64,000 nucleotides of DNA from positions 3,521,570 through 3,585,569 of the forward strand of contig OY282565.1 of the NCBI GenBank assembly GCA_958296445.1. The letters run 5' to 3'. Positions 6,489 to 55,672 of this stretch are shown piece after piece. The stretch is from an uncultured Dehalococcoidia bacterium (GTDB lineage: Bacteria; Chloroflexota; Dehalococcoidia; Lucifugimonadales; UBA3495). The position numbers were made by a program, and so were the translations under genes. Position 1 is the stretch's first letter; every line of letters begins with the position of its first letter. Under the pieces are notes generated by a model. It saw only the letters and a list, made by a program, of their open reading frames with translations, did not search any database and was not told where the DNA came from.

Positions 6489-9400
6489 ATGCGGATTGCG
6501 CATCTGAATAGTTTTATTGTTTTCATACTGGTCGCGGCCGGGGTTGCGGTGGGGACGTTTTTTGCGTTTTCGGGTTTGGCGCAGGCTAACCCAGCGGCAT
6601 ATCTGAGCTTGTCGCCGGATTCGATTTCCGAAAACGGGGGGGCCAGCACTGTTACCGCTACATTATCGGCTACGTCTACGGAGGCGGTGGTGCTTACGGT
6701 GTCGGCGGCGGCGGTTGGCCCGGCTTCGGCGGGGGATTTTGCGCTGTCGGGCGACACGCTTACCATTGCGGCGGGGGATACGGCCAGCACGGGGACGGTT
6801 ACGATTACCGCGACCGATAATGATGTTTATGGGGGGGATAAGACCGTTTCGGTGTCTTTGGGGCAGGCGTCGGGGCCGTCGGTGGGGCTGCCGTCGGCGC
6901 AGTCGCTTACGATTAGCGACGATGAGACGGCGCCTACGCCGGAACCGGAGGTTACGCCTGAACCCGAAGTTACACCCGAACCAGAGGCTACGCCGGAACC
7001 GACGTCTACGCCCGAACCGGAATCTACCCCGGAACCTACGCCTACTCCTGAACCGGAGTCTACGCCCGAACCTACGCCTACCCCGGAACCGGAATCTACC
7101 CCAGAACCTACGCCTACTCCTGAACCGGAGTCTACGCCCGAACCTACGCCTACCCCGGAACCGACGCCTGCGCCGGAACCGGAGTCTACCCCGGAACCGA
7201 CGTCTACGCCCGAACCGGAGTCTACCCCGGAACCGACGTCTACTCCTGAACCTGAATCTACCCCAGAACCGACGCCTACTCCCGAACCGGAGTCTACCCC
7301 AGAACCTACGCCTACGCCGGAACCGGAATCTACCCCAGAACCGACGCCTGCGCCGGAACCGGAGGGCCCGGCCCCGGTGGATGATGGGCAGGTGGCGGTT
7401 AGCTTGTTGCTGTCGCCGGAGTCCGTTTCGGAGAGCGGCGGGGTTAGCGTGGTGACGGCGGCTTTGTCGGCCACTTCTACGGAGGCGGTGGCGCTTGTTG
7501 TGGGGGCGGCGGCGGTTGGCGCGGCGGCGGATGGGGATTTTGTGCTGTCGGAGAATGTTGCGCTTACGATTGCGGCGGGGGAGACGGCCAGCGCGGGCGT
7601 GGTTACGATTACGGCGGTTGATGATGATGTCGCGGGCGGGGATAAGGCCGTTTCGGTGTCTTTGAGCAAGGTATCGGGGCCGGCGGTGGGGCTGCCGGCG
7701 GCGCGGTCGCTTACGATTAGCGATGATGATGCGGCGGACGGCGGGGAGCAGCCGCTGCCGCCGCCGGATCAGGTGGAGGTGGATGCGCCGCCGGAACCGC
7801 AGGCGCAGGCCCAGGGCAGCGAATCGGGGACGGGGACGGTTACGCTGTCGCTGTCGGAGTCGTCCATTTCGGAGAACGGCGGTTCGGCTACGATTACGGC
7901 TACACAGAGTTTTAGCGCGGCGTCCGCTACTACTATCACGCTATCGGCCAGCCCGGCCGGGGATGTTAGGCTGTCGAGCAACACCTTGACTATTGCCGCC
8001 CGTAATACCGCCAGCACGGGGGCGGTGACGATTACGGCGGTGGACAACAGCGTTGTGGCGGCGGACAAGTCGGTTACGGTGTCCGGCTCGGCGTCAAACT
8101 TTGATGAGCGGTTTCGCAACCTAACGGTGACCGGGGCCACGCTTACGATTACCGAAGATGATTCGCATGGGGTTACGCTGGCGCTGTCGGAGTCGTCCAT
8201 TTCGGAGAATGGCGGGGTTAGCACGGTTACGGCTACGCAGAATTCTGCGGCCAATGCGGATACTACTATCACGATATCGGCGAGCCCGTCCGGGGATGTT
8301 AGCCTGTCGAGCAACGTTACCTTGACCATTGCCGCCGGTGATACCGCCAGCACGGGGACGGTGACGATTTCGGCGGTGGACAACAGCGTTGTGGCGGCGG
8401 ACAAGTCGGTTACGGTGTCCGGCGTGGCGTCTTACAATGGGCCTACCTCTGCTGCTATCCCGGCGGTGACCGGGGCCACGCTTACGATTACCGAGGATGA
8501 TTCGCATGGGGTTACGCTGTCGCTGTCGGCGGCGTCCATTTCGGAGAACGGCGGTTCGACTACGGTTACGGCTACTTTGTCGGCTACGTCTACGGCGGCA
8601 ACCATTATTACGGTGGCGGCGGCGCCGGTTAGCCCGGCGGCGGCCGGGGATATTTCGGTGTCGAGCAACGTTACTTTGACCATTGCCGCCGGTAGCACTA
8701 TCAGCACCGGGGCGGTGACTATTACTGCCAACGACAACAGCGTTGCGGCGGCGGACAAGACGGTTAGGGTGTCCGGCTCGGCGTCGAACAGCGAATATAC
8801 TCCGGCGGTGACCGGGGCTACGCTTACGATTACCGACGATGATACGCCTACGGTTACGCTGGCGCTGTCGGCGGCGTCCATTTCGGAGAATGGCGGTTCG
8901 GCTACGGTTACGGCTACGCAGAACTTTACTGCCGAAAAGAATACTTATATCGCGGTATCCGCTAATCCGGCCGGGGATGTTAGCTTGTCCGCCAACGTAA
9001 ATTTGATCATTGCGGGCGGGACTACCAGCAGCATAGGGATAGTGACTATATCCGCCGTGAACGACAGCGATGCGTCGGGGGACAAGACGGTTGCGGTGTC
9101 CGGCACGGCGTCGAATGACGATTATGCCGACGCGACGTTGGCCGGGGCTACGCTTACGATTACCGAGGATGATGCGCCTGCGGTTACGCTGTCGCTGTCG
9201 GCGGCGTCCATTTCGGAGAATGGCGGTTCGGCTACGGTTACGGCTACGCAGAACTTTACCGCGACGGCGGCAACCACTATTACGGTGGCGGCGGCGCCGG
9301 TAAGCCCGGCGGTGGCCGGGGATATTTCGGTGTCCAGCAACAAAACTTTGACTATTGCCGCCGGGTCTACCAGCAGCACGGGGGTGGTGACTATTACGGC

Positions 9401-12400
9401 CGTGGACAACAGCGTTGTTGCGTCGGCGATCAAGACGGTTGCAGTGTCCGGCACGGCGTCGAACAGCGAATATGCTGACGATCCGCCGGTGAACGGGGCG
9501 ACGCTTACGATTGTCGAGGATGATCCGGTGGTGACGCTGGCGCTGTCGGCGACGTCCATTTCGGAGAACGGCGGTTCGGCTACGGTTACGGCTACGACGA
9601 ATTTTACCTTTCCCTTGCCGATAGCTGTCATAGTGGCGGCAACTCCGGTGAGCCCGGCGGTGGCGGGCGATTTCAGTTTGCCTTCCGACACTACTTTGAC
9701 CATTCCTGCCAATCAGACCAGCACCACGGATACGGTGACGATTACGGCGGTGGACAACAGCTTTAATAACCCGGACAAGACGGTGACCGTGTCCGGCACG
9801 GCGCGGGTGACCGGGTTATTATTCACTACAACAAATTACGAGGTGATCGGGGACACGCTGACCATTCTTGACGATGAGCCGTCGGTGACGCTGACGCTGT
9901 CGCCGTCGTCCATAGCTGAGAACGGCGGGGTTAGCACGGTTACCGCTACGCAGGATTTTACTGCCGAGTCGGATACTATTATCACGGTATCTACGAGCGC
10001 GGCGAGCGAGGATGCCAGGCTGTCCGAGAACGTTACCTTGACCATTGCCGCCGGGTCTAGGAGCAGCACGGGGGTGGTGACTATTACTGCCGTGGACGAT
10101 GACGTTGCGGCGACGCTCAATACGGTTGCGGTGTCCGGCACGGCGTCGAACAGCGAATATGCTTCCGCGCCGCCGGTGGTCGGGGCTACGCTTACGATTA
10201 GCGATGATGAGGAGTTGGTTACTCTGGCGCTGTCGCCGTCGTCCATTTCGGAGAATGGCGGTTCGGCTACGGTTACGGCTACGCAGAACTTTACTGCCGC
10301 GTCGGCTACCACTATTACGGTGGCGGTGACGCCGGTTAGACCGGCGGTGGCCGGGGATATTTCGGTGTCCAGCAACGTCACTTTGACCATTCCCGCCGGG
10401 GCCAGCAGCAGCACCGGGACGGTGACGATTACGGCGGTGAACAACAGCCATGCGGCGCGGGACAAGACGGTTACGGTGTCCGGCACGGCGTCCAACGCCG
10501 ATTACGCGGCCGCTCTGACGGTGAACGGGGCTACGCTTACGATTACCGAGGATGATCGTTTGGTGAAGCTGATACTGTCGGAGCGATCCATTGCCGAGGA
10601 TGGCGGTTCGACTACGGTTACGGCTACGCAGAACTTTACTGTGTTTTGGGATACCAGAATCGTGGTGTCCACAAATCCGATTAACCCGGCGCAGAACGGG
10701 GACATTTCCGTGTCCGCCAACAAAACTTTGACCATTCCCGCCGGTAATACCACCAGCACCGGAGTGGTGACGATTACTTCCGTGGATAACGACGACGCCA
10801 CGCCGCACAAGACGGTGATTATATACGGCGCGGAGCAGTCCCGGGAATACCCGGTGCTTGGGGCTTCGGTTAGCATCATTGACGACGAACGGGCGGACGT
10901 TACGCTTACGCTGGCGTCGTCCATAAACGAAAGCGGGACCGGGAACTCCACTTCCATCAGGGTCAGGCTGCCGTGGGTCTCCAACACCACGACCACGGTC
11001 GCCATTAGGGCGACGCCGGTCAGCCCGGCGACGGCGAGCGATTTCATTTTGTACTTGAACGATGACCCTGCGTCCGGGGAAGCCACGGTGAACTTTCCCA
11101 CCAGGACGGCGACGGGCCACTTGGGCCTGGTCAAAATTACGGCGGTGGATAACGCTGATGACGAGTCGGACAAGTGGGTGAATGTATCGCTTACGGTGGA
11201 TAGCAGCAGCGAGAGATATACGGCGCCGCTCACTCCCTACAAGCTGCGGATTATTGACGATGACGGGGCGGACTGCGAGGGGGGCGGGGCGTTGGCTAAT
11301 TATACCGGCGCCGCCCGGACGCAAGGGCTGATTGACGATTGCTCGGCTTTGCTGCGGCTTAAGGACACGCTGAAGGGGACGACGGCGCTGAACTGGAGTG
11401 AGAGCCTGGACATAAACCAATGGACGGGCGTAGAGGTTGGCGAGGGACAGGCCGAGGGCTGCACTCCGGCCAGCGGCAGCGGGAACCGGGTTATCAAGGT
11501 TCACATAGGCTGGCAGAACACCAAAATCGCCAACAATGACAGCAACGAATATCAACCGGCCCTTACCGGGACAGTGCCTGCCACTTTTTCCGAATTAACC
11601 GCGCTGCGTTATCTGTCCTTGAAGGAGCATTCCGGGCTTACCGGCGGCATCCCGTCGGAGTTGGGCAGCCTAGCCTGCCTTCGCAGCCTGTCTTTGGCCG
11701 GGAATGGACTGACCGGCGGCATCCCGGTTGAACTGGGCAACCTGTCCAACCTTACCGACTCGCTGGTTCTGTCGGACAACCGGCTAACGGGCAGCATTCC
11801 GGCCGAATTGGGTAATCTGAGCGGACTGTCCCAAAGTCTGCAACTCAATAACAACCGGCTAACGGGCAACATTCCGGCCGAATTGGGCAACCTGTCCAAG
11901 CTGACGCAGCTTCAGCTGAACGACAACCAGCTGAGCGGCAGCATCCCGGCGGGGCTGGGCACCGTGGGGCGGGAACGCACGGACAACCCGCGCGACGACG
12001 CCAACCCGCAGTACCGGCAGAATCTGTTCAAGCTGCAATTGCATAACAACCGGCTAACCGGCCTGATTCCGCCGGAACTGTCGAAATTGACCGGGCTCAT
12101 TCGGAGCCTTACCAACTTCACCGGGAACGATCTCAGCAGCGATGTCACGCTGTCGGTGACTCCGGGGACGCTGGCGGAAAGCGACGGGGAAACGTCGTTC
12201 ACTGTGACGGCGGCTCTGGACGCCGGAACGATATGGGCCGCGGAGCTGAAGCGCGGGAAGGTGGCGGAGGGCATCGTTGTTGACGGGACGGGGAGCGGGA
12301 CGGCCAACGCGGTTGCTTTCAGCAGCACGGCTACGCCGTCTTTCGAGATTCTTAATTCGGCCATCGTTACCGGCAGCGGCGGGGTTAAGTCGGCCAGCGC

Positions 12401-15400
12401 GACGGCCACGCTGAAAATAACCCCGACGGCCAACGCGCTGTTGAACGCGGATGAAACTATTACTTTGGGCGTCACCGGAACGGGGGCGCCGGGGATTGCC
12501 GGCACCAGCCTGCGAGTGAAGCCGCCGGCGGCCACTATTTTGCTTGCCGACGATGATTCGCCTGCGGTGACGCTGTCGCTGTCGGCGGTGTCCATTTCGG
12601 AGAATGGCGGGGTGACTACGGTTACGGCTACGCAGAATTTTGTTGCGGCGGCGGATACTACTGTCACGGTGGCGGCGGCGCCGGTTAGCCCGGCGGTTGC
12701 CGGGGATATTTCGGTGTCCGACAACGTCACTTTGACCATCCCTGCCGGTAACACTACCAGCACCGGGGCAGTGACTGTTACTGCCGTGGACAACAACGTT
12801 CGGGCTGCGTACAAGTCGGTCGAGGTGTCGGGCACGGCGTCGAATACAGCCTACCCCGCGGCCCCGGCGGTGTCCGGGGTTAGACTTACGATTGCCGACG
12901 ATGATGCGCCTGCGGTGACGCTGTCGCTGTCGCCGTCGTCCATTTCGGAGAACGGAGGGGTTAGCACAGTTACGGCTACGCAGAATTTTATTGCGGGGTT
13001 GGATACTACTGTCGAGGTGACGGCGGCGCCGGTTAGTCCGGCGGCGGCGGGTGATTTCGCTTTGTCCAGCAATGTCACGCTTACCATTGCCGCCGGTAAC
13101 ACTACCAGCACCGGGGCGGTGGTGACCATTACCGCCAACGACAACGGCGTTGTGGCGGCGGACAAGCCGGTGGCGGTGTCGGGCGTGGCGTCAAACACTG
13201 CTGACCGGTTTAGGAACCCGGCGGTGACCGGGGCTACGCTTACGATTACCGAGGATGATTTGCCTGCGGTTACGCTGTTGCTGTCGGCGGCGTCCATTTC
13301 GGAGAACGGCGGTTCGGCTACGGTTACGGCTAGGCAGAACTTTGTTGCGGCGTCGGATACTACTGTCACGGTGGCGGCGGCGGGCGGGGATGTTAGCCTG
13401 TCCGGGAACGTTGTTTTGACCATTGCCGCCGGTTCCGTTACCAGCACCGGGGCGGTGACTATTTCCGCGGTGGACAACAGCGTTATTGAGGCGGATAAGA
13501 CGGTTGCGGTGTCGGGCGCGGCGGTCAATGCGGAGTATACTTCCCCGGCTCCGGCGGTGACCGGGGCTACGCTTACGATTACCGAGGATGATACGCCTGC
13601 GGTTACGCTGTTGCTGTCGGCGGCGTCCATTTCGGAGGATGGCGGGGTTAGCACGGTTACGGCTAGGCAGAACTTTGTTGCGGCGGCGGATACTACTATC
13701 ACGGTGGCGGCGGCGGCGGTTAGCCCGGCGGTGGCGGGCGATTTCAGGCTGTCCAGCAATTACACGCTTACTATCGCCGCCGGGAGTACCGTTAGCGCGG
13801 GGGCGGTGACTATTTCCGCTGTTGATAACAGCGTTGTTGCGGCGGACAAGACGGTTACGGTGTCGGGCGGGGCGGTCAATGCCGCTCATGCCGCCTTGGG
13901 GGTGAACGGGGCTACGCTTACCATTACCAACGATGATGTCGTTACAATCATCAGGGATCCGGTTGGGCCGGTTGGGCCGACACAGCCTAGGAAAGTTACG
14001 CCCGCGGTTACGCTGGCGCTGTCGGCGTCCAGCATATCGGAGAATGGCGGCACGGCTACGGTGACGGCTCGGCAGGATGTGGCGGTTAGCGCGGATACGG
14101 TTGTCAGCGTGTTTGTTGCGCCGGTGGAGCCGGCCGGGCGGGGCGACTATAGGATGACGGGCGCGACGCTTATTATCGCCGCGGGGGAAACCCGCAGCAC
14201 GGGGACGGTGACTATTACCGCGGTGGATAACGGCGTTGTGTCTGGGGACAAGGAGCTTTGCATCGAGGGGAAAGCGGTCAACAGCGAGCATACTTCCCCG
14301 GCGCCGACGGTGACCGACGCTGCGCTTACCATTACCGACGATGATACGCCTGCGGTTACGCTGGTGCTGTCGGCGGCGTCCATTTCGGAGAACGGCGGTT
14401 CGGCTACGGTTACGGCTAGGCAGAATTTCACTGCGACGACGGATACTACTATCCGGTTGTCGGCGATTCCGGTGAGCCCGGCGGTGGCGGGCGATTTCAG
14501 CCTGCCCAGCGATGCGACGCTTACTATTGCCGCCGGGGATACGGTTAGCACGCGGGCGGTTATAGTTGCCGTCGGGGATACCGGGAGCGCGGGGGAGGTG
14601 GTGATTACCGCCAATGACAACAATGTTATTGCGGAGGACAAGACGGTTAAGGTGTCGGGCAAGGCGTCCAATGCCGCCCATAGCAACGTGGGGATGAACG
14701 GGGCTACGCTTACGATTACCGACGATGATGCGCCTACGGTTACGCTGGCGCTGTCGGCGGCGTCCATTTCGGAGAATGGGGGTTCGGCTACGGTTACGGC
14801 TACGCAGAATTTCGTTTCGGCGTCGGACACTACTATTATCGTGGGGGCGGCGCCGGTAAGCCCGACGGGGGCGGGCGACTATGCTTTCAGCGGGAGCAGG
14901 CTTACCATCGCGGCGGGCAAGACGGCCAGCGCGGGGGTGGTGACTATAACCGGCGTGGACAACCGGGTTGACGCGGCGGATAAGGAGCTGCCGGTATCCG
15001 GCACGGCCAGCAACGCGGAGCATTCCGGCGGCCTGCGGGTGCGCGGGGCGACGCTGGCGATCGCCGATGACGATACGCCGAGGGTGACGCTGGTTTTGAC
15101 GCCGCCGAGGGTCGGCGAGGATGGCGGGGTCGCGGTGGTGACGGCGGAGCAGAGCGTTGCGTCGAGCGTGGATACCACGGTCACGATTCTGGCCGCGCCG
15201 GTAAGCCCGGCGGCGGTGGGGGATTATGCGCTGAACGGCGATACGCTTATCATTGAGGCCGGGCAGACGTCCGCTTCGGGGCGGGTTACGATTACCGCCA
15301 TGGATAACGGGGTTGACGCGCCGGACAAGGAGGTGGCGGTGTCGGGGGCGGCGGCCAACGGCAACAATCCCGACGGGCTGGCGGTGGCCGGGGCCACGCT

Positions 15401-50915: not shown

Positions 50916-51017
50916 TTATAGGGCAAGTTATGGTAAGTTTACATCATCCTCGCCGCCGGCCGGCCCGATTGGGCCGCCGGGGAACACCGGCCCCGCGCCG
51001 GACTGGAGCCTTTGCCG

Positions 51018-52421
51018 ATGATTGACTACAGCTCTCTGCGAACCATTGACGACCTGCGAAACAGCGGATACCAGGTTCGCCCCGTCCGTGAAGAAATACG
51101 CAACAACCTGATTGCCCGGATTCGCGCCGAGGAAATGGTCTTTCCCGGCATCATCGGGTTCGAGGAATCCGTCATTCCGCAACTGGAAAACGCCATTCTG
51201 GCCGGGCAGGACGTCATCCTGCTGGGCGAGCGGGGGCAGGCCAAGTCGCGGCTGATTCGCGGGCTGGTCGGCCTGCTGGACGAGTACATCCCCAAGATAG
51301 CGGGCTGCGAAATCAACGACAACCCCTATCATCCCATTTGCCAAGCCTGCCGCAACCGGGTGGCCGAATACGGCGACTACACCCCCATCGAATGGCTGCC
51401 CCGGGAAGAGCGCTACTCCGAGAAGCTGGCAACCCCGGACATTTCCATCGCCGACCTGATTGGAGAGATTGATCCCATCAAGGTGGCCGAAGGGCATTAC
51501 CTTTCCGACGAACTGGTCATCCATTACGGGCTGGTTCCCCGCACCAACCGGGGGATATTCTGCATCAACGAACTGCCCGACCTAGCCGAGCGAATCCAGG
51601 TTGGCCTGTTCAACCTGATGGAAGAGCGGGACGTGCAGATAAAGGGCTACCGCATCCGCCTGCCCCTGGACGTTTACGTGGTGTCCACGGCCAACCCGGA
51701 GGATTATACCAACCGGGGCCGCATCGTGACGCCGCTGAAAGACCGCTACGGCTCCCAGATTCACACCCACTATCCCCGCGACCTGCGGGACGAAATCTCC
51801 ATTATGGATCAGGAGCGCAACCGCTTCCCCGACGAGGAGCGGCTGGTGGTTCCCGACTATATGAAATTCATCTTGGCCGAAATAACCTCCCAGGCCCGGT
51901 TGAGCAGCGAAATCAACCAGCGATCGGGCGTAAGCGTGCGCGTTTCCATCGCCAACTACGAAACCGTCTTGTCCAACGCCGTCCGCCGCAGCATCATCAA
52001 CGGCGAGGAGTGGGCCTGCCCCAGGGTGAGCGACCTGTCCTACATCGTGGCCTCCTTCGCGGGCAAGATAGAGCTGGAAACCTTTGAGGAAGGCCGCGAG
52101 TCGCGGGTTACGGACGAGCTGACCCGCCGCGGCCTGCTGCGGGTTTTCGGAAGCCGCTTCAGCCTTGAAGACCTGGAAGACGTGATAATGGCCTTCGATA
52201 TGGGCCAGAGTGCCTTGACCGGCAGCGACCGCCCGGCCGCCGAGTATCCGGCCCTAGTGGAGTCCATTGACGGCCTGGCCGATGCGGTGGCAGGGCTGAC
52301 TGGCGGCGACCGGCGCCCCGAGGTCATCGCCGCCGCCGCTGAGTTCATCCTAGAGGGCCTGCACCTGAGCCGACGGCTCAACTGCAACCGCTCCGCCGAC
52401 GGCTACCGCTACACCCGCTAG
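51018..52421 (+). CDS. Mg-chelatase/MoxR-like AAA ATPase
   Basis: This is a 467-residue AAA+ ATPase of the magnesium-chelatase ChlI-like group. The Walker A region reads LLGERGQAKSRL, with Ala in place of the last Gly, which I recall as a subfamily trait. GIFCINELPDLAERIQVGLF contains Walker B, and DVYVVSTANPEDYTNRG sensor 1. The relatives usually work with a VWA-domain partner to remodel protein complexes; none is encoded next to it here. The ATG at 51018 has GGAG nine bases upstream. Its client is unknown. Confidence 0.88.
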   Translation: MIDYSSLRTIDDLRNSGYQVRPVREEIRNNLIARIRAEEMVFPGIIGFEESVIPQLENAILAGQDVILLGERGQAKSRLIRGLVGLLDEYIPKIAGCEINDNPYHPICQACRNRVAEYGDYTPIEWLPREERYSEKLATPDISIADLIGEIDPIKVAEGHYLSDELVIHYGLVPRTNRGIFCINELPDLAERIQVGLFNLMEERDVQIKGYRIRLPLDVYVVSTANPEDYTNRGRIVTPLKDRYGSQIHTHYPRDLRDEISIMDQERNRFPDEERLVVPDYMKFILAEITSQARLSSEINQRSGVSVRVSIANYETVLSNAVRRSIINGEEWACPRVSDLSYIVASFAGKIELETFEEGRESRVTDELTRRGLLRVFGSRFSLEDLEDVIMAFDMGQSALTGSDRPAAEYPALVESIDGLADAVAGLTGGDRRPEVIAAAAEFILEGLHLSRRLNCNRSADGYRYTR

Positions 52422-52427
52422 GGGCGG

Positions 52428-52757
52428 CTAGGATTGCCGCGTGGACTCCAGAGAGGGATTGCCGGCCTGTCGGCGGGCGGACAAAAAAATATCGCCCAAC
52501 TCCGAGTAGTATGACGGTTCGGGTTCGGCGGAATCGCCAACGGCAAGGCCCAGCGTTTCGCCGCCGGAATCCGTCATTATCAGGCCATATACCAAGACTT
52601 TTCCGGCGAGGAACCCTCGAATCAAGAAGCATAAGTCCGGGAACTGAAGGCGGTAGGAGTAATCCCATCGGTTCCCGGCGTACTCCCAATTAACCGGCCC
52701 CGGCTGGGCGCGTTCCCGGAACGCCGCCAGCACTTCCTCTTGGTTTAGCCTGTTCAT
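52428..52757 (-). CDS. small protein of unknown function
   Basis: A 109-residue protein that I do not recognise. It contains WEYAGNRWDYSYRLQFPDL, a hydrophobic strand-like LCFLIRGFLAGKVLVYGLIM and an acidic C-terminus. It may be a single domain with no membrane helix. It lies 11 bases downstream of another minus-strand gene and could share its transcript. It converges with the ATPase gene. Confidence 0.55.
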   Translation of the reverse strand: MNRLNQEEVLAAFRERAQPGPVNWEYAGNRWDYSYRLQFPDLCFLIRGFLAGKVLVYGLIMTDSGGETLGLAVGDSAEPEPSYYSELGDIFLSARRQAGNPSLESTRQS

Positions 52758-52768
52758 AGCCCTCTCCC

Positions 52769-53260
52769 CTAATTCAGTCCTGGCATCCTTATTCGGAGTT
52801 CGGAAATTAACTTCGTCTCTATCTCCGACAGAGCGAAATTGAATTCGCTGACCTTTTCTCGCGGCAAGCGACCGTCAACACTGTCGGCGAAACGCTCCAT
52901 ATCCGCTATTGCTGATGACGCATCCCGAATCTGCGCCCGTAGGCTGTCGGTCAAATTCGGATGGCGAATTTCAATATCCGAAAGACTGGATGTGATGTCC
53001 CTGTAATAGGCGAAAGCCCGGTTCTTGTCGCCTTGCCGGTGGGCGTCTTTCAACTCCTCAATTTTCTCGCGCAGAGAGGCCAGTTCGCTCAGAGTCAGGT
53101 CGCGGCGAATCGCCCGCTCCGCCGACTCCGCCGCGTCCTTTGCCGCCCGCGTTTCGCCGCGTAGCTTGCGCAATTGCAGTATAGCAAACCCTAGGCCCAG
53201 CAGGGATATTGCCGCTCCGGCGAGGCTTGCTATACTGGCGGCGGTTTCCAGCGTTTCCAT
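52769..53260 (-). CDS. membrane-anchored coiled-coil protein of unknown function
   Basis: A 163-residue protein with one N-terminal membrane helix (AASIASLAGAAISLLGLGFA) followed by a charged helical domain (LRKLRGETRAAKDAAESAER, LSELASLREKIEELKDAHRQ) likely to form a coiled coil in the cytoplasm. It ends only 8 bases after the start of the radical SAM gene's stop region and could be part of that SOS-type transcript. The function is unknown. Confidence 0.6.
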   Translation of the reverse strand: METLETAASIASLAGAAISLLGLGFAILQLRKLRGETRAAKDAAESAERAIRRDLTLSELASLREKIEELKDAHRQGDKNRAFAYYRDITSSLSDIEIRHPNLTDSLRAQIRDASSAIADMERFADSVDGRLPREKVSEFNFALSEIETKLISELRIRMPGLN

Positions 53261-53268
53261 ACGCCGCC

Positions 53269-54243
53269 TTACGCGGTGAGGGCCAGCTCCAGTTGGCCGC
53301 CGCGGGCCGGGGCGGCGGGGCGGCGGCGGGACGGCTTGGCTTGGCTCAGGCTGAGCTCCAGTTGGCCGCGGACCGGCTTGGGGGCCGGGTCACGCTCCCG
53401 GCGGTGCAGTCCCCAGCGGCGGCGCTCCCGGTCTACGATGGACAGCACGCCCTTGGTGTATTCTTCCGGCGCGTAGGTTTTGCGGTAGAGCTTGGCGTAG
53501 CCCTGCTCCAGGTGCGGGTAGGTTTCCCGCAGCATAGGCATAAACCACTCCCGCGAGCCGGGCTTGAGGAACAGCACGTTGGCGCCGAGGAACTGGGCTC
53601 CGTGGGCGTGAGCGGCGGCGGCCACCGCGGCGATGTTCTCTTCGTGGTCGCTGATGCCGGGGAGCAGCGGGGCCATCATCACCCCGGCGTTGATGCCGTT
53701 CTCAACCAAGAACTGCATCGTCTCCAGCCGGGACTGGGGGCGGGGGGCGCCCGGTTCGGTGAGCTTCCAGACCTCTTCGTCCACCGTGCCGACGCTGAAG
53801 TTGACGCTGACTTCGGCGACTTCGCTCAATTGGCGCAGCAGGTCTACATCGCGCCGGGCCAGCACGCCCTTGGTGGTGATGGTGGCGGGGTTGGCGAAAT
53901 CAACCAGCACCTGAAGCACGCCGCGGGTAAGCCCGTACTCGGCCTCGGCGGGTTCGTAGGGGTCGGAAGCGGTGCCGATGGCGATGCTTTCGCCGCGCCA
54001 ACTGGGGCGTTTCAGTTCCTGCCGCAACACTTGGGGGGCGTTGACTTTGGCGAAAACCCGCTGCTCAAAATCGCGCCCGGCGTCCATACCCCAATACTCG
54101 TGGGTGGGCCGGGCATAGCAGTAGCGGCAAGCGTGACGGCAGCCGCGATAGGGGTTGAGCGTCCACCGGAAGGGGAACATCGGAACGTCCAGCCGGTTGA
54201 GCAGGGTCTTGCAGTGAATTTCCGTTACCTGAGCGCCTGCCAT
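53269..54243 (-). CDS. radical SAM protein, SplB/PA0069/Rv2578c-like
   Basis: This 324-residue protein has the radical SAM motif C35-x3-C39-x2-C42 (GCRHACRYCYAR), then TASDPYEPAEAEYGLTRGVL, VLARRDVDLLRQL and APLLPGISDHE. It belongs to the group related to spore photoproduct lyase and often annotated Rv2578c- or PA0069-family. The C-terminus is Arg/Pro-rich. GGAGG lies four bases before the ATG. Two LexA-like boxes and a good promoter lie directly upstream, which suggests a DNA-damage role. Its reaction is not established. Confidence 0.87.
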   Translation of the reverse strand: MAGAQVTEIHCKTLLNRLDVPMFPFRWTLNPYRGCRHACRYCYARPTHEYWGMDAGRDFEQRVFAKVNAPQVLRQELKRPSWRGESIAIGTASDPYEPAEAEYGLTRGVLQVLVDFANPATITTKGVLARRDVDLLRQLSEVAEVSVNFSVGTVDEEVWKLTEPGAPRPQSRLETMQFLVENGINAGVMMAPLLPGISDHEENIAAVAAAAHAHGAQFLGANVLFLKPGSREWFMPMLRETYPHLEQGYAKLYRKTYAPEEYTKGVLSIVDRERRRWGLHRRERDPAPKPVRGQLELSLSQAKPSRRRPAAPARGGQLELALTA

Positions 54244-54256
54244 GCCGCCTCCAAAA

Positions 54257-54284
54257 CAAACAATTGTTCGTAAACATTTGTTCG
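54257..54284 (-). promoter_or_regulatory. two abutting LexA/DinR-type boxes
   Basis: On the minus strand CGAACAAATGTTTA (54284-54271) and CGAACAATTGTTTG (54270-54257) lie end to end. Each matches the Gram-positive SOS consensus CGAAC-N4-GTTCG with one or two changes in the right half. They cover the expected transcription start, so LexA bound here would block transcription. Confidence 0.8.
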
Positions 54285-54285
54285 C

Positions 54286-54314
54286 ATATTAGCGGGCTAT
54301 CGCCGATGCGTCAA
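54286..54314 (-). promoter_or_regulatory. promoter of the radical SAM gene
   Basis: On the minus strand TTGACG (54314-54309), a 17-base spacer, and TAATAT (54291-54286). The predicted start, near 54279, lies inside the first LexA-like box. Confidence 0.78.
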
Positions 54315-54448: not shown

Positions 54449-55159
54449 CTAGACGGATGGAACCAAGACGCGCGGGCCGGGAACGTCTTGGGATGGCGGG
54501 GCGGAACTGCCCCACGGACGGCCGGTAACCAAGAATACCACCTGCTCGGCGATGTTGGTGGCGCGGTCGGCGATGCGCTCCAAATCGTGGGCCACCCACA
54601 GCAGATAGGTGGCCTGCCGGATGGTGCGCGGGTCTTCAATCATATAGAGCAGCAGCTCGCGGTACACCTGGTCATAGAGGGCGTCCACCTCGTCATCGGC
54701 CAGGCAGACGGCTTCGGCTATCTCCGTATCGCGCTGGAGCAGCGCGTCTATGCTGCCCTGGAGCATGGCGGTGGCCTTTTCGGCCATGCGGGGAATGTCT
54801 ATCAGGGGCTTGAGGGTTTTTTCGTCGCCCATCGCCAAGCTGATTTTGCCGATGCCTTCGGCGTAGTCGGCGATGCGCTCCAGCTCCACGCCGATGTGCA
54901 ACAGCGATATGATGGCCCGCAGGTCACGGGCCACCGGCTGCTGGGTGGCGATGAGGTTGACGCAACGGTCTTCGATTTCGGAATGCTTGCGGTCAACGAA
55001 ATCATCATCGTCAACCACTTGCTGCGAGGCGGCCAAGTCCCGGTTCTTGAGGGCTTCGACGGAGCGGCGAATCATATCGCTCACGAAGTGAGCCAGGGAT
55101 TCAACCTCTTCTTCCAGCCCAACCAGTTTCAGGTCGTATTCTTCCCGGCGTGTGGGCAT
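54449..55159 (-). CDS. phoU: phosphate signalling protein PhoU
   Basis: This 236-residue helical protein links the PstSCAB transporter to the phosphate response. Two PhoU half-domains are visible: FVSDMIRRSVEALKNRDLAA with IEDRCVNLIATQQPVARDLR and HIGVELERIADYAEGI, then MLQGSIDALLQRDTEIAEAV with LLWVAHDLERIADRATNIAE. Metal-binding Glu/Asp motifs (E..ERIAD) occur in both. The ATG at 55159 has GGAGG six bases upstream. It is 18 kb from pstCAB and stands alone, with no phoR/phoB near. Confidence 0.93.
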   Translation of the reverse strand: MPTRREEYDLKLVGLEEEVESLAHFVSDMIRRSVEALKNRDLAASQQVVDDDDFVDRKHSEIEDRCVNLIATQQPVARDLRAIISLLHIGVELERIADYAEGIGKISLAMGDEKTLKPLIDIPRMAEKATAMLQGSIDALLQRDTEIAEAVCLADDEVDALYDQVYRELLLYMIEDPRTIRQATYLLWVAHDLERIADRATNIAEQVVFLVTGRPWGSSAPPSQDVPGPRVLVPSV

Positions 55160-55207
55160 GGCTCTCCTCCCCGGCACAAGTACCGGCAGCCCGCCCGCCG
55201 GAAAGGG

Positions 55208-55672
55208 CTAAACCCGCGTCCAGAAGGGGGGCCGTTGGCGCTGCGCCTCTAACAAAGTTTCGTCCAAAAGCTCAAGTTTTGCTCCGGGTACGGGCGGCGA
55301 TGGAACATCATACCCAACGGCGTCCAGCACTGTCAAATTGGTGTAATAGCCATTGTAAACCTGCAACACCAACTGGTCAAAAAACTCGGCGTGGGACGCC
55401 TCCACCGCCTGCAACGCCGCATCCTGGGATTCGCCGGAAAGCGCGGCGAAACCGTCGGGGCCGCGCTCGGCGGCGGCGATTTCGATGGCCGCCAGCCCCT
55501 GCACAAACAGCCGCGTAAGGCCCGGCTCGCCGACGGCCACCGACTCCACGAAGCCGCCGATGCCCAAGTCGCCAGCGCCGGGCCGGTCGCCCTGGGGCGG
55601 GATGATGCGGTTCAGCGCCGCGTCCAGCGCCTGCCGCTGCGCCGCCGAAAAAACTTGCCGGGATGCGCTCAT
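55208..55672 (-). CDS. gluconate 2-dehydrogenase subunit 3-like protein
   Basis: A 154-residue protein whose pattern (FSAAQRQALDAALNRIIPPQ, GAGDLGIGGFVESVAVGEPG, QVYNGYYTN) resembles the small subunit 3 family of membrane-bound gluconate or fructose dehydrogenases. No twin-arginine or signal sequence is visible, and no GMC-type large subunit or cytochrome gene is nearby. It may therefore be an orphan accessory protein. Confidence in the family is moderate. Confidence 0.65.
   Translation of the reverse strand: MSASRQVFSAAQRQALDAALNRIIPPQGDRPGAGDLGIGGFVESVAVGEPGLTRLFVQGLAAIEIAAAERGPDGFAALSGESQDAALQAVEASHAEFFDQLVLQVYNGYYTNLTVLDAVGYDVPSPPVPGAKLELLDETLLEAQRQRPPFWTRV

Follow-up and report, generated by a model that had tools for sequence, protein, structure and literature searches.

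The locus analysed here raises the question of what a radical SAM enzyme would do in the SOS response of an uncultured bacterium. The window, i.e., the whole 64,000-nucleotide stretch of DNA, carries on its minus strand a gene for a 324-aa protein (53269..54243), preceded by a promoter. Read directly on that strand, the order is TTGACG-17-TAATAT-G-CGAACAAATGTTTA-CGAACAATTGTTTG-TTTT-GGAGG-CGGC-ATG. The -35 hexamer TTGACG (54309..54314) lies 17 bp from the -10 hexamer TAATAT (54286..54291). One base past the latter starts LexA-type box 1, CGAACAAATGTTTA (54271..54284), abutted end to end by box 2, CGAACAATTGTTTG (54257..54270), both of the GAAC-N4-GTT type. The expected transcription start, about 7 nt after the -10 hexamer, falls inside box 1, and a Shine-Dalgarno sequence GGAGG (54248..54252) stands ahead of the ATG at 54243. 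Direct reading thus confirms the layout given in an earlier note on this DNA, which had described a TTGACG-17-TAATAT promoter with two boxes placed end to end over the start region.

The encoded protein is a member of the radical SAM superfamily (PF04055, 56.4 bits; cut-off 29.5). Its CxxxCxxC motif (C35, C39 and C42; 54118..54141, minus strand), which would provide the 4Fe-4S ligands, is present in 72/72 distinct homologues, across which only these three cluster cysteines are invariant. NCBIfam relates the protein to the PA0069 (NF033668) and Rv2578c (NF038135) families, with which it shares the radical SAM domain, the alignment covering almost the full length of the model. Its scores of 315.7 bits for Rv2578c and 248.2 bits for PA0069 lie below the curated cut-offs of 430 and 360, respectively. 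Of 400 genomes sampled from the phylum, 201 have a match to the Rv2578c model, all of them below the cut-off; at the weak end, the matching proteins are other radical SAM enzymes. Since the window protein and those of 200 other Chloroflexota genomes all score below the cut-off, they are best regarded as a clade neighbouring Rv2578c. Several PA0069/Rv2578c genes have an SOS box upstream, and the proteins have a clamp-type motif at the C-terminus, as has the window protein, which differs from them in carrying two such motifs. Rv2578c and PA0069 are members of the LexA regulons of M. tuberculosis and P. aeruginosa. The NCBI label of the PA0069 family is only “hypoth_equivalog”, and our literature search found no open paper on Rv2578c or PA0069 in connection with LexA.

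The earlier note had suggested that the enzyme may repair DNA lesions as its relative spore photoproduct lyase (SPL) does. The structural part of this suggestion is supported by the predicted fold. A model made with AlphaFold2 has a mean pLDDT of 78 and becomes disordered at residue 286. Its best Foldseek match is SPL (E 8e-8), and the structural alignment with 4fhf extends over 256 residues (Z 20.1, rmsd 3.0), the next fold scoring 15.6. The CxxxCxxC motif and an EPGT region are common to the window protein and SPL (SplB, 4FHC). The catalytic part is not supported. The hydrogen-donor cysteine of SPL, Cys140, is missing from the window protein and its homologues: in a MAFFT alignment, made at low identity and anchored by an adjacent S/T-D, it falls on Thr91, and the 72 distinct homologues have Thr (66), Ala (5) or Ser (1) at this position. 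The wild-type Cys was restored in the SPL fragment used, the available chains being C140A or C140S mutants. A relative fetched as an SPL family member (L211) has no Cys at this position either and is therefore no positive control for the chemistry. From the model and the alignment, the protein appears to share the SPL fold without its hydrogen-donor cysteine, and lyase chemistry is not supported, since the Cys140 position is Thr, Ala or Ser in every homologue. With the catalytic cysteine absent, likeness to SPL tells little about the substrate.

It is therefore unlikely that the product is an SOS-controlled SPL-like enzyme which uses the SPL mechanism to undo a UV product of the thymine-dimer type, its C-terminal motif playing no part. 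Such an enzyme would explain why SPL leads the structural matches, and it would agree with a marginal SPL match in the PDB sequence search (profile E 0.014) and with the description of SplB/COG1533 genes as SOS-controlled photolyases (PMC3323433, PMC8565304). Besides the substituted cysteine, it is opposed by the low identity in the structural alignment (12–14%) and by the search for the SPL family PF20903, which at E 0.001 gave no hit in this genome.

On sequence grounds, the C-terminal tail points to action at DNA more strongly than the likeness to SPL does. The window protein ends in GQLELSLSQAKPSRRRPAAPARGGQLELALTA. Residues 286–324, with a pLDDT below 50, hold an inner clamp-type motif QLELSL (residues 294–299; 53347..53364, minus strand) and a C-terminal one, QLELAL (residues 317–322; 53278..53295, minus strand). 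This tail did not figure in the earlier note. Both motifs lie in the predicted disordered stretch and fit the published clamp-binding consensus, Q-phi-x-[L/M]-[F/L] or Q-phi-x-[L/M]-x-[F/L] (PMC13254535). Known beta-clamp clients carry the canonical QL[S/D]LF, QVELEF in Pol III or QVEMEF in RecB, and the clients listed in the accessible sections of that paper (PMC13254535) include no radical SAM enzyme.

Within the last 14 residues, the published consensus is matched exactly by 38 of the 72 distinct tails, compared with about 0.6 for shuffled tails. A relaxed QLxLx[L/F]-like motif is found in 70 of the 72 (about 4 expected), counts to be read with the facts that the short motif was spotted on viewing the tails, that the relaxed pattern was written afterwards and that homologues are not independent. 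The two proteins lacking a C-terminal motif are from Actinomycetota and have EQQQLF near the N-terminus. The motif is spread over Chloroflexota, Actinomycetota, Pseudomonadota, Gemmatimonadota, a Firmicute and two phage contigs, and in five phyla it stands at the extreme C-terminus, after linkers of variable length. Relatives end in QLELAFTA, QLQLAFTA, QQLALIA, TQLSLPLAA, QLALPL, QLSLFGVH, QQLALFQAA or QLRLLPL. Endings in other phyla include GDQLTLF, GDQLRLF, GEQLRLF, GQLDLFAGIV, VQLSLL, GGQYSLF, QGELF, GQEPLF and QQSLFD, and those on the phage contigs are DQMSLFE and QQMTLADFM. Less closely related radical SAM proteins (mobile pair B, Runella, Paenibacillus and Haloarcula) do not have the tail. 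As a control, a similar pattern was detected in 6 of 224 other ORFs of the same loci, four of which are MBL-fold nuclease-like, end in DQLRLF or DQLSLF and adjoin the radical SAM gene. These nuclease-like neighbours belong to one Chloroflexota clade (L180, L183, L184, L187 and L193). No paper joining radical SAM enzymes and a clamp-binding motif was found in our literature search. Papers combining radical SAM, the sliding clamp and SOS dealt, in their accessible parts, with an antibiotic gene cluster or were a general review. That the family consists of clamp clients is, from the tails, a strong prediction rather than a demonstration.

The enzyme might also be a modifier of tRNA, protein or a small molecule that is induced together with SOS, its tail motif being due to chance or serving a non-clamp partner. 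The reaction of PA0069/Rv2578c is not known, many radical SAM folds with other substrates reach Z 13–15 against the model, and the conserved neighbours are not repair genes. The latter encode a MoxR-type ATPase (window 51012-52421), PhoU (54449-55177) and a Gluconate_2-dh3 protein (55208-55672), kept by tblastn in 30, 37 and 40 of 52 loci, respectively. Such a modifier is nevertheless quite improbable, as it leaves unexplained why the motif is retained at the very end of proteins from five phyla despite variable linkers, why exact matches to the clamp consensus so exceed the shuffled level and why some homologues lie beside a nuclease-like gene with the same type of tail. The two ORFs downstream of the radical SAM gene (52769-53260 and 52428-52757) have no Pfam hit and matched nothing in the loci of relatives at E 1e-5, and are thus uninformative as operon partners.

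Whether the two boxes are LexA operators was judged from the lexA genes of this genome and its relatives. The genome has one full-length LexA (G000:C1:977938-978627, L001), in which an HTH, an Ala-Gly cleavage site and the peptidase Ser and Lys can be recognized by sequence reading. The promoter of this lexA is TTGACA-17-TAATTT, followed by GTGC and then by TAGAACATAGGTTTTA, just downstream of the -10 hexamer. Of the 28 lexA promoters of relatives that could be read, nearly all show the element at the same place, e.g., as CAGAACATAAGTTTTA, and in 25 of the 28 a box of this kind scores above the 99% level of shuffled sequences. A matrix was built from 26 lexA sites only, all from the Dehalococcoidia/SAR202-like family, and contains 19.3 bits of information. 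As read from these sites, the family operator is an A/T-flanked variant of the Gram-positive box, roughly AGAAC-N4-GTTYT. It shares the GAAC-N4-GTT core and the spacing with CGAAC-N4-GTTCG, whereas its outer bases are mostly A/T (AGAACATAAGTTTTA in lexA promoters). A Gram-positive-type LexA box is also present in Dehalococcoides. Compared with the CGAAC-N4-GTTCG box named in the earlier note, the operator of this family is thus a variant and not a strict copy.

In the 64-kb window, the matrix derived from lexA promoters alone ranks box 1 first (14.7 bits) and box 2 second (14.1 bits), the next site having 10.1 bits. With both strands of the window counted, only three places reach a 12-letter consensus score of at least 11, two of which are the adjacent boxes, and the 4.0-Mb genome as a whole has a single copy of CGAACANNTGTTYG, at the site of box 2. 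The window boxes are imperfect at their outer positions (14–15 bits versus 24 for the genome's own lexA box); both have C at the outer position, unlike the usual A/T of the family. Allowing one mismatch, the Gram-positive pattern CGAAC-N4-GTTYG has 14 matches in this G+C-rich window against 9.5 expected, which is not significant alone. Ten of the 14 are both-strand hits of five distant copies of AGAACGGCGGTTCG (window 7873-14402), which lie inside an apparently repetitive coding region and are probably coding repeats, not operators. A search of the window for TAGAACANNTGTTYTA with three mismatches gave no relevant match, and the genome matches of GAACANNNGTTT are mostly inside ORFs and have low scores. 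As the one-mismatch pattern stays at chance level, the case for the boxes rests on the comparison with lexA and on conservation.

For the latter, homologues were taken from named genomes and from the SAR202-like family (41 of 50 genomes), and their promoters were scored with a symmetric 12-letter consensus at a threshold of at least 10, dinucleotide resamples serving as the null. A box is present in 28 of 32 distinct family promoters (null 5.4%) and in 18 of 24 promoters from other Chloroflexota families (null 3.5%). Family boxes, such as TAGAACAAATGTTTTA, TAGAACGAATGTTTTA and TAGTACAATTGTTCTA, are located at the -10/start region and are single (TATAATTAGAACAAATGTTTTA) or double (AGAACATCTGTACTATTAGTACAATTGTTCTA). 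A same-genus relative has two nearly abutting boxes, AGAACAAATGTTGCGAACACCTGTTGT, spaced 13 bp instead of 14. Examples from the other Chloroflexota are CAAACATTTGTTCTA, AGAACAAACGTTCTAT and CGAACGTATGTTCTAT, and two actinobacterial homologues (L030 and L031) have CGAACGTACGTTCG and CGAACGTATGTTCG. Four alphaproteobacterial homologues carry GTTC-N7-GTTC 25 to 47 bp ahead of the first start, and an Aeromonas homologue has CTGTATATATAAACAG at -28. Since these Proteobacteria have here the box that fits their own LexA class, LexA control would have been kept, or regained, despite the changed recognition sequence, an argument already made for splB (PMC3323433).

Taken from sequence comparison, SOS control of the window gene is well supported by the matrix ranks, by the same box at the same place in the genome's own lexA promoter and by the boxes upstream of homologues, and the placement of the gene in the SOS response by the earlier note is borne out. 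It is very improbable that the boxes serve another repressor with a GAAC-N4-GTT-like site: proteins consisting only of a short LexA DNA-binding domain do occur in this genome (112 aa, L002) and in relatives, and a small HTH protein is itself under the same boxes, but the same box stands at the same position in the family's lexA promoters, as autoregulation predicts, and Proteobacteria have their own class of LexA box ahead of the gene. The LexA-DNA-binding-domain-only ORFs (112–114 aa) are found at G000:C1:779391-779579, near a DnaN-like ORF, and at three places in a second genome (G018); they are possible LexA-operator-binding proteins of mobile elements.

The agreement is less clear for recA, which the earlier note had proposed to compare along with lexA. 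The recA gene of this genome has only a weak half-site, TAGAACATATATGCTT, within its promoter spacer (9.5 bits with the lexA matrix), and a same-genus relative has TAGAACATATGGGCTT in the corresponding spacer. Among the recA promoters of relatives, 10 of 29 score at least 10 of 12 (null 8.3%). A conserved recA box was sought in the family promoters (L095-L124), most of which have no box and some of which have one upstream of the promoter. In this family, recA may be outside the LexA regulon. As it shows no clear box, some of the SOS circuitry either departs from the usual or has escaped detection.

Drawing together the promoter, the conserved boxes, the radical SAM motif, the SPL-like predicted fold and the conserved tail motif, we consider it likely that the gene encodes a LexA-repressed, SPL-fold radical SAM enzyme that is recruited to the sliding clamp and processes damaged DNA. 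In undamaged cells, LexA dimers on the two abutting boxes would mask the transcription start and so silence the gene, and two abutting operators at this site are expected to give tight repression. Upon damage, RecA-triggered cleavage of LexA would free the promoter. The product, an SPL-fold enzyme of the PA0069/Rv2578c kind with two putative DnaN docking motifs in its disordered tail, would then be recruited to the beta clamp, on DNA that is replicated or gapped, and there its 5'-deoxyadenosyl radical might be used on a damaged or cross-linked base or nucleotide. Docked on the clamp and induced by damage, the enzyme would work at stalled forks or behind them, and its probable target is damaged DNA at the replication fork. 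The extension to the whole family, in which PA0069/Rv2578c and their Chloroflexota sisters would be SOS-induced DNA-repair enzymes, docked on the clamp by a C- (or N-)terminal motif and using a non-SPL radical chemistry, is a tentative proposal with somewhat less than an even chance; if true, it would amount to a replication-coupled radical repair pathway that has not been described before.

SOS control of SplB-like radical SAM genes is already published for other organisms. LexA-controlled radical SAM/SplB (COG1533) genes have been described in alpha- and beta-Proteobacteria (PMC3323433), in Gram-positives and Balneolaeota (PMC7739468), in Bacteroidetes (PMC8565304) and, as vnz_31145, in Streptomyces venezuelae (PMC9380542). 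The accessible sections of these four papers mention no clamp motif. New are such control in SAR202-like Chloroflexota, together with the LexA operator of this group, and, within the limits of our literature search, the clamp-type tail. SplB-like genes have been listed in regulon studies, even as core SOS genes of Gram-positives, without a known reaction. A putative clamp-docking tail conserved in five phyla gives a concrete handle on the working place, the sliding clamp, and makes the functional question directly testable. These uncultured Chloroflexota also gain a LexA motif and the first members of a regulon.

Two further plausible targets lend support to the operator. A ruvC-like operon (L163, G000:C1:2751000-2756500) has the box TCGAACAAAAGTTCTG at about G000:C1:2754101, approximately 80 bp ahead of a small Zn-ribbon-like ORF that is followed by a RuvC-like nuclease (PF02075, 31.1 bits; cut-off 22.2). 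The second is a gene for a 121-aa protein with a Cys cluster, YEDTGCEASDSCLDCPLPRC, and an HTH-like end (G000:C1:3495262-3495624; L162:2260-2637, minus strand), which 46 of 49 family genomes possess. Its locus was read in 12 cases, including relatives (L217-L227), and nearly all of these have one to three LexA-type boxes, e.g., TAGAACAAACGTTTGT and CAGAACAGCCGTTCTA, around its promoter. The protein appears to be a regulator under SOS control, so far undescribed, of this clade. At another locus (L164, G000:C1:2765048), TGGAACATAAGTTCTG is located ahead of a 491-aa ORF read as possibly phage-terminase-like, and the locus is perhaps a LexA-controlled prophage.
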